Assembly (NCBI RefSeq): GCF_000023845.1
Contig: NC_013170.1
Coordinates: 558,001-622,000 of the forward strand
Source: Cryptobacterium curtum DSM 15641
GTDB taxonomy: Bacteria; Actinomycetota; Coriobacteriia; Coriobacteriales; Eggerthellaceae
Direction of reading: 5' to 3'
DNA length: 64,000 nucleotides
Shown here: piece after piece, positions 37,751 to 40,114 of the stretch
Layout: the number at the start of each line of letters is the position of its first letter
How positions within the stretch are numbered: position 1 is the stretch's first letter
Notes under the pieces: generated by a model
The model's input: the letters and a program-made list of their open reading frames with translations, nothing else
What the model was told of the DNA's origin: nothing
Databases searched by the model: none
Position numbers and translations under genes: made by a program

Positions 37751-38578
37751 ATGAAGGCGGTTATTCCTGCGGCGGGGATGGGAACTCGCTTTCTACCAGC
37801 AACCAAGGCAGTGCCAAAGGAAATGCTGCCCGTGGTCGACCGCCCGGTTATTCAGTACATTGTGGAAGAAGCGCTCGATTCGGGCGCGGATGAAGTGATT
37901 ATCGTAAACAATCGCACCAAACAGGCGATTGAGCATCACTTTGCGCCCGATGCAGAACTCGAAGCAACCTTAACAGCACGCGGTAAAACTGCGCTGGCTG
38001 AAAAGGTTCAGCATGCGGGCAGTTTGCCAGTGACGTTTGTGTATCAAGATGAAGCACTGGGCCTTGGGCATGCGGTGCATTGTGCGGCTGCTGTCACGGG
38101 TGGGGAGCCATTCTTTGTCCTGTTGGGCGATGTCATTGCTGAAGATGGCAGTATGCTTGCGCGCATGCGTGAGATTTCCGAAGCACACGAGGGCGCCAAC
38201 GTTATTGCAGTGCTTCCCGTTGCACGCGAAGAAGTTAGTCGTTTCGGTGTTATCAGCGGAAGCGAAGTGTCTGCGGGGGTATGGAAGGTAAACAGCCTGG
38301 TTGAAAAGCCCGCCGTTGACGAAGCGCCATCTAACCTTACGGTATTTGGTCGGTATCTGCTGAGTCCGCGCGTCATGGAGCTTTTGGCCGGTGTGGCACC
38401 AGGTGCTGGTGGGGAAATACAGTTGACCGATGCGCTCGATGCGGTTTTAGCAGAAGAAGAGATGTACGCGCTGGTGATTGATGATGATGACGGATTTGAC
38501 ACCGGTACACCAGAGACCTGGCTTGATGCCAATGTGCGTCTTGCTGCGCGATCTCGAAAAGCTCATGATATACGTTAA
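37751..38578 (+). CDS. galU: UTP--glucose-1-phosphate uridylyltransferase
   Basis: GalU makes UDP-glucose for cell-surface glycans. The nucleotidyltransferase signature AVIPAAGMGTRFLPATKAVPKEMLP opens the protein (only part quoted here as AAGMGTRFLPATK), followed by DRPVIQYIVEEA, LGLGHAV, FFVLLGDV, and DGFDTGTPETWL near the end. 275 residues is normal. It begins three bases after ccmD, but functionally seems separate from the cytochrome genes. Confidence 0.95.
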   Translation: MKAVIPAAGMGTRFLPATKAVPKEMLPVVDRPVIQYIVEEALDSGADEVIIVNNRTKQAIEHHFAPDAELEATLTARGKTALAEKVQHAGSLPVTFVYQDEALGLGHAVHCAAAVTGGEPFFVLLGDVIAEDGSMLARMREISEAHEGANVIAVLPVAREEVSRFGVISGSEVSAGVWKVNSLVEKPAVDEAPSNLTVFGRYLLSPRVMELLAGVAPGAGGEIQLTDALDAVLAEEEMYALVIDDDDGFDTGTPETWLDANVRLAARSRKAHDIR

Positions 38579-38945
38579 GTGAGGCGTAAAGGCAAGAGAA
38601 TGGCCCGGGGCTAAAAGGGGAGCGCCACCGGGCCTTGGGAGGGGTGGTACACGTTTTCCGTGTAACCGTATCCGCCGCAAGGGAGGAGAAAGGCGGATAC
38701 CAATCAAACTGAGGAGGGGTTCCTTTCGTTTGATGAATACATTCTACCTGCCGTGCTTGCAGAACTATTGACTGGTGAGTGCGTGTTTTATGTAAGCGGT
38801 TTCAGGATGGTAACGTGACGCTCACCAGAGTGCATCAGCGGCATCAAAATTCTGCTTATGCAGGAATTCACACGCAAGAAATTACGTACCGTGGCAATTG
38901 CTACACATGGCTGTAAACGAGCTTAACCCGCGTCGAAGGAGCACC
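38579..38945. other. Intergenic region between galU and the TIM-barrel gene
   Basis: It holds the four-hairpin region described separately (38602-38734). Downstream, TTGACT at 38768-38773 is a candidate -35 element for the plus-strand gene, but its -10 partner is weak. An AAGGAG ribosome site (38936-38941) precedes the next ATG. Confidence 0.4.
38602..38734 (-). ncRNA. Candidate structured small RNA with C-rich loops
   Basis: Four inverted repeats lie side by side: 38703-38734 (ATCAAAC/GTTTGAT), 38668-38700 (GTATCCGCC/GGCGGATAC), 38646-38667 (GGTACACG with CGTGTAACC, one bulge) and 38602-38634 (GGCCCGG/CCGGGCC). Read on the minus strand, the loops and one linker carry CCCCTCCTC, CTCCTCCC, CCCCTCCC and GCTCCCC, all able to pair with ribosome-binding sites. 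A minus-strand TAGAAT at 38746-38741 would start transcription at about 38734, exactly at the first stem. The last GC-rich stem could end transcription, though the following T run is poor. The plus strand would instead show GGAGG-rich loops. The strand is therefore inferred. Confidence 0.45.
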
Positions 38946-39842
38946 ATGCCTGACATTCAAATGCGCTTCCATCACGATATGCTTACCCTATCGTCTCCGC
39001 TTGAATCGACCCTTATCGCGCAGGGGTTTGATCTATCGTTTGGGGTATCGCTACTTTCGGTGCTCGAACCAGAAGCCGTATCAGCGGCGTTGCGCTTACA
39101 AGTGGCTGCTGGCGCACCCTGTTTGGTAGCGCCGACTGCTGGCGTTACGCACGCGCGTCTTGCTCATCAACGAGCGGCCGATCGCGACATCAATATTGCA
39201 CAGGCGGCAAAATCTTTAGCAACCGCTTTTACAACGCAGCATGTACTGGCAGAAATTGGCGCAACTGGCTTACCGATTGATCCAAATAGCAAGTCTTCGC
39301 TTACCGCTAATCGCGACGAGTACCTGCGCGCTGCGCGGGCGATTGGCGATGCGGATATCGATGCATTCTTTGTTAATGGGCTGACTGGTGCCGCCGATGC
39401 GCGCTGCGCCCTGATGGGTGTACGTCAAGTGTTTGCCACGCCTCTTATTGCTTCAGTTGATGTTAATGAAGAAGGCATTGCGAACGATGGAACAGGTCTC
39501 GAAGACATCGTTGCCGTGATGGCCGATCTTGAAGCTGACGTGGTGGGATTTTGCACTTCGGCTGATAGTGAGGGTGCTGCTCGTCTTGCGCAGCGTGCAG
39601 CACACGCGTGCGATCGACCGCTGCTCGTACAGCTGAATGTTCAAAAGCAGCCATCTTCAACGCTGTTTTCACACGCACGTGGTCAGTTGGATATCCCATA
39701 TGCTGATCCATCGTCCATGGTGCAAGCTGCCGATTGCCTGCGTGCTGCTGGTGCGCAATTTATACGCGCTGTTGGTGCGGCCACCCCTGCATATGCAGGT
39801 GCACTGGCGGCTGCGCTCGCTGGGACCGAACCCATTCGATAA
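38946..39842 (+). CDS. Homocysteine S-methyltransferase-like TIM-barrel protein lacking the zinc cysteines
   Basis: A 298-residue protein whose layout matches the homocysteine-binding methyltransferase family: an N-terminal QGFDLSFG where family members have a conserved Asp/Gly start, LVAPTAGVTHARL in place of the ..TNTF.. segment, DVVGFCTSADS where GxNC is usual, and AVGAATPAYAGAL where the zinc-binding GGCCGTTP is usual. The two adjacent cysteines are replaced, so zinc and homocysteine binding as in BHMT or MetH seems unlikely. The real substrate is unknown. ATG 38946 has AAGGAG four bases upstream. The next small gene follows after eight bases. Confidence 0.6.
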   Translation: MPDIQMRFHHDMLTLSSPLESTLIAQGFDLSFGVSLLSVLEPEAVSAALRLQVAAGAPCLVAPTAGVTHARLAHQRAADRDINIAQAAKSLATAFTTQHVLAEIGATGLPIDPNSKSSLTANRDEYLRAARAIGDADIDAFFVNGLTGAADARCALMGVRQVFATPLIASVDVNEEGIANDGTGLEDIVAVMADLEADVVGFCTSADSEGAARLAQRAAHACDRPLLVQLNVQKQPSSTLFSHARGQLDIPYADPSSMVQAADCLRAAGAQFIRAVGAATPAYAGALAAALAGTEPIR

Positions 39843-39850
39843 GGGGTATG

Positions 39851-40114
39851 ATGCGTCAACCGATTAGCAACATTAATAGAAGTGAAGACTATGGTGTCTT
39901 ACAGCGCCTGGTCAACGAACTGTATGCCCACCGCGAATACGCGAGTCGGCTCGATGTGGTTGTGCTTGCTGAATCTTATGATCTGCCTGCCGACCTTGAT
40001 GAAATAGTCTCGCTGCTTCCTTCGGGTGTCTATATACGTCAAACGCTGTGCGACCAGTTGAATTCGGCAATTACTGGTCATGCCTGGGGGCAGGTATACG
40101 GTACGGTCGAATAA
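39851..40114 (+). CDS. Small protein of unknown function
   Basis: An 87-residue acidic protein (MRQPISNINRSEDYGVLQR..., ending WGQVYGTVE) with predicted alpha helices and no membrane segment. I do not recognise the family. An AAGGGG ribosome site lies five bases before the ATG at 39851 (an ATG at 39848 is too close). It is coupled to the TIM-barrel gene in what looks like a two-gene operon. Confidence 0.6.
   Translation: MRQPISNINRSEDYGVLQRLVNELYAHREYASRLDVVVLAESYDLPADLDEIVSLLPSGVYIRQTLCDQLNSAITGHAWGQVYGTVE

Follow-up and report, generated by a model that had tools for sequence, protein, structure and literature searches.

A predicted small RNA of four serial hairpins with C-rich, anti-Shine-Dalgarno-like sites in Cryptobacterium curtum and other Eggerthellaceae

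Four adjacent inverted repeats stand between two plus-strand genes of Cryptobacterium curtum DSM 15641, and the question they raise is whether they encode an RNA, from which strand, and what such an RNA would do. The window analysed here is a stretch of 64,000 nucleotides (NC_013170.1, positions 558,001 to 622,000), and all coordinates are given within it. An initial annotation had proposed a minus-strand small RNA presenting several anti-Shine-Dalgarno (anti-SD) loops at once. Our analysis points to a small-RNA gene with a four-hairpin fold on the minus strand at approximately 38734-38590 (~145 nt, both ends predicted), placed on the basis of a covariance model match and synteny. We put at about three in four the probability that this is a stand-alone, trans-acting anti-SD sRNA, the Cryptobacterium member of a wider family, which is driven by an activator and represses a set of mRNAs. 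Good support exists for the family and its structure, for the strand, the synteny and the conserved, exposed motifs, and for a promoter array nearly private to the sRNA; that the minus strand is transcribed into RNA, that its C-rich motifs pair with SD sequences, that this pairing represses, and what kind of activator is involved are what we infer.

The minus strand of 38596-38746 has a minimum free energy of -60.1 kcal/mol, compared with -38.7 ± 3.8 for dinucleotide shuffles (z = -5.58), and all four annotated repeats are present on it as hairpins. Hairpin 1 (38703-38734) carries CCCCUCC in its loop (38713-38719), hairpin 2 (38668-38700) carries CUCCUCCC (38681-38688), with ACCCCUUA often taking its place in relatives, and hairpin 4 (38602-38634) carries CUCCCC (38617-38622). 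Between hairpins 3 and 4 lies a single-stranded linker (38635-38645, unpaired probability 0.93 in the window) with CCCCUCCC at 38637-38644; alignments of the relatives' copies give AUCAUCCCCUCCUUGUG here, nearly invariant. The initial claim that the loops all carry a C-rich motif, as does one linker, is thus right for hairpins 1, 2 and 4 and for the linker, and inexact because hairpin 3 (38646-38667) has a motif-free GAAAA loop. Similarly, the annotated span of 38602-38746 contains the four hairpins, but the feature reaches further, to a promoter array at 38757-38794. In relatives hairpin 4 is terminator-like, with CUUUU directly after it, and the U-run of the window copy is weak; a terminator scan found none at the window copy, although the scan's loop limit of 8 would miss hairpin 4. 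In eight copies from other families of the order the hairpin 2 loop reads GACUCGG, and in Eggerthellaceae often CCCC.

A DNA search returned short matching pieces in relatives, and on inspection three loci held the same four-hairpin unit, one of them twice in tandem. The covariance search suggested with the initial annotation was carried out with two models, both built with the window copy left out, and it recovered homologs with four stems and C-rich motifs. Model R1, from four relative copies, had matches in 99 of the 138 Eggerthellaceae genomes, the window copy among them at E = 1.4e-6 (genome scale); model R2, from 30 copies, matches the window at 38586-38748, minus strand, at E = 3e-13 (window scale). 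R2 has a match in 121 of the 397 genomes searched in the order, comprising 105 of the 138 Eggerthellaceae and 16 genomes outside that family, 13 of which belong to one other family of the order, and the homologs keep the same order of four hairpins. Eggerthellaceae carriers have one to four copies per genome, and carriers include Gordonibacter pamelaeae, Eggerthella sinensis, Paraeggerthella, Rubneribacter, Enteroscipio, Adlercreutzia and Slackia. Cryptobacterium is represented in the genome set by the window's own genome alone. All eight matches in a sample of 296 genomes from the phylum were in Eggerthellaceae, with none in the other actinobacterial genomes sampled. One match lacks the four-hairpin architecture and probably arose by chance.

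Pair changes were counted in a sequence-only alignment (A4) of 30 copies. In nineteen pairs both sides had changed; shuffles, which do not keep the relatedness among copies, averaged 7.8, and none of the 500 reached 19. These changes back hairpins 1 (six of seven outer pairs), 3 (four of six pairs in the homologous stem) and 4 (six of nine inner pairs), so that a lack of compensatory changes among relatives, which the initial annotation had named as grounds for giving up the small RNA, was looked for and did not materialize. Hairpin 2 has no both-side changes in the 30 copies, its cells showing one-side changes or being unpaired and often misaligned. When partners were slid by one to three columns, paired cells fell from 88.7% to less than 50% in every control, a comparison biased towards the chosen structure since that structure was picked from the same sequences; the both-side counts are the stronger evidence. 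RNAalifold by itself predicted hairpins 3 and 4.

The C-rich sites are more numerous than in shuffles and more exposed than other positions. The window copy has four of them (CCCCUCC, CUCCUCCC or CUCCCC), where shuffles average 1.0 (P = 0.003), and their mean unpaired probabilities are 0.58-1.0. Across 103 distinct copies there are 2.9 sites per copy, compared with 1.1 after shuffling, and the unpaired probability is 0.78 at these sites versus 0.38 at other positions. Conserved, exposed anti-SD-like sites, as looked for in a trans-acting anti-SD sRNA, are found here.

The gene neighbourhood is constant. The order at the locus is galU, the sRNA on the opposite strand, a homocysteine-methyltransferase-like gene and rarA. 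The galU-like gene (37751-38578, plus strand; NTP_transferase PF00483, 3.9e-33; TIGR01099 galU, 1e-86, under the curated cut-off) is convergent with the sRNA, and the homocysteine S-methyltransferase-like gene (38946-39842, plus strand; PF02574, 5e-11) is divergent from it. Among 83 loci, galU was seen in 34, the methyltransferase-like gene in 48 and rarA in 16, counts that are lower bounds because most loci span only ~3 kb. In most loci showing these two neighbours, as in the window, both are encoded on the other strand from the sRNA, and this fixed synteny argues that the sRNA is no mRNA leader. A mobile repeat was rejected because the copies stay in one neighbourhood, and a protein-coding reading was set aside as well, stem and linker lengths varying freely with no frame kept, as judged by eye. 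Beside the methyltransferase gene there is a 94-aa ORF (39830-40114), conserved in 28 loci, for which no Pfam or NCBIfam match was found.

Upstream of hairpin 1 the minus strand carries what looks like a dedicated promoter. The TAGAAT noted ahead of the first stem is present at 38746-38741, spaced by six bases and not by the seven first given; it corresponds to a -10 box with the family consensus TATAAT/TATACT. Of the 74 copies, 72-73 agree at positions 3, 4 and 6, the first two bases having been fixed by the search procedure. Ahead of it, TTCACAA, CAC, CATA and TTCAA recur at 11-bp steps in 74 non-redundant upstream regions. In the window this array, TACATAAAACACGCACTCACCAGTCAATAGTTCTGCAA, occupies 38757-38794 on the minus strand, identified by the consensus of the 74 copies and by pattern matches, and its four units are probably activator-binding sites that replace a -35 box. 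The pattern TNCANAAN6CAN9CAN7TNCAA has 98 exact matches in 137 genomes, 93 of them at the sRNA (counted by coordinates); the five others were inspected and have no sRNA there, the window's own genome has a single match, at the sRNA, and the reversed pattern has two. Recovery of the sRNA promoters is expected because the pattern was learned from them, and the informative part is the scarcity of other sites. The array is partly retained in some copies from other families. On this sequence evidence the sRNA appears to have its own promoter and not to be part of a UTR. The 11-bp period brought PhoP to mind, and a PHO box was considered and rejected: the pst promoters in these genomes do not have the array, and the sRNA promoter matrix had no match in the pst regions of seven relatives, so a shared box with the Pho regulon was not found. 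At five loci from several genera a different box, CTTTACTnAGATTTGA..CGACA..CTTTGATG, lies upstream of pstS, and is probably the PHO box of Eggerthellaceae. The pst operon itself lies ~11-30 kb from the sRNA locus in several genera (five genomes).

As to class, the initial annotation had recognized none. Its multiple C-rich, anti-SD-like loops are borne out by motifs conserved in relatives, and no Rfam family reaches threshold, either in the window at the gathering threshold or at the locus and its relatives at looser E. The 6C model has no match in the window at the gathering threshold, nor around the locus up to E = 10. Alpha-r14 (RF02344) scores 16.2 bits at the locus (E = 1.1) against a gathering score of 58.8 and matches none of the relatives up to E = 1; CcsR1 (RF02791) scores 11.4 bits (E = 7.1) against 65.3. 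In NfeR1, an alpha-r14 RNA of Alphaproteobacteria, serial hairpins expose a CU-rich anti-SD motif, the stems diverge while the seeds are redundant, and a conserved stretch lies upstream of the promoter (PMC10746234). Our RNA shares the serial hairpins, redundant anti-SD seeds and conserved upstream stretch, but alpha-r14 has three hairpins, each with CCUCCUCCC, whereas here there are four hairpins, one of them motif-free, and a motif-bearing linker, with mostly CCCCUCC. Rfam describes a conserved CCUCCUCCC motif for CcsR1 too, an RNA of Rhodobacter and thus of another phylum. Closer in phylum (Actinomycetota) and also with C-rich loops is 6C/B11, where either loop of B11 is able to repress an mRNA whose 5' UTR contains a G-tract (PMC10470900); B11 has two C-rich loops in contrast to the four hairpins with CCCCUCC seen here. 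By the tests run on these sequences, the Eggerthellaceae sRNA belongs to neither alpha-r14 nor 6C/B11. The literature, mainly freely readable papers, yielded no description of this four-hairpin family and no described sRNA for Eggerthellaceae; the family could be among the 3161 unnamed motifs of PMC8040213.

By analogy with the alpha-r14 and 6C/B11 sRNAs, this sRNA most likely acts in trans by pairing with G-rich SDs. An activator, which the 11-bp period suggests may be a response regulator of the OmpR/PhoB type, would bind the four helically phased half-sites and switch on transcription, whose start would lie past the -10 box at 38741-38746. The three or four exposed C-rich sites would act as redundant seeds for G-rich SD regions (AAGGAGGGG and shorter), and the pairing would keep a set of mRNAs from being translated. 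No perfect AAGGAGGGGA-ATG site occurs in the window's own genome. Across 48 genomes, a sum made by hand gives ~93 exact AAGGAGGGGA-ATG sites, antisense hits on the sRNA itself among them; the other three bases combined account for 395. A screen in relatives gave 77 usable ORFs downstream of exact AAGGAGGGGA-ATG and 61 from control SDs, with redox and exported proteins abundant in both; the two sets are the same in kind, and no specific regulon emerged because the control genes are redox-rich too. Recurrent matches, named by eye from sequence, were a hydrogenase/Nuo-like large subunit, a 2-oxoacid:ferredoxin oxidoreductase and an acetolactate synthase small subunit, and should be taken as leads only.

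That the search yielded no target set would fit a decoy RNA in which the C-rich sites titrate away some protein, or a second RNA such as a G-rich sRNA, and leave individual mRNAs unrepressed, a role to which repeated similar motifs and one to four gene copies are well suited; we consider this unlikely, the motif being complementary to SD sequences and the studied sRNAs with such motifs acting on mRNAs. About as unlikely is a general translation inhibitor, in which the linker would mimic the 16S rRNA 3' end (AUCA..CCUCCUU) and compete globally for SDs or initiation components. The near-invariance of AUCAUCCCCUCCUUGUG, which we take to resemble the 16S tail, speaks for it. Against it, the extra Cs of CCCCUCC give preference to those SDs that are rich in G, and most SDs called in the window are short, matching over 4-6 bases. 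A plus-strand RNA with GGAGG-rich loops binding protein or the 16S anti-SD, offered initially as the alternative, is highly improbable: that strand folds too, though less well (z = -3.4), and the -10 box, the four stems, the CCCCUCCU motifs and the terminal hairpin and U-run common to relatives all belong to the minus strand.

Returning to the trans-acting anti-SD sRNA, a broader proposal can be made tentatively, and we hold it as doubtful: a clade-wide translational regulator, with a dedicated activator whose essentially only target, through four phased half-sites, is the sRNA gene, and with several 16S-tail-like sites through which the RNA would set the translation of G-rich-SD mRNAs. For Eggerthellaceae, gut and mouth bacteria in which regulatory RNA is little known, the four-hairpin family supplies a conserved sRNA whose seed is clear, together with its promoter and probably a regulator of its own. 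Alongside the alphaproteobacterial and mycobacterial RNAs, it appears to represent one more lineage in which serial hairpins present redundant anti-SD sites, which would point to convergence.
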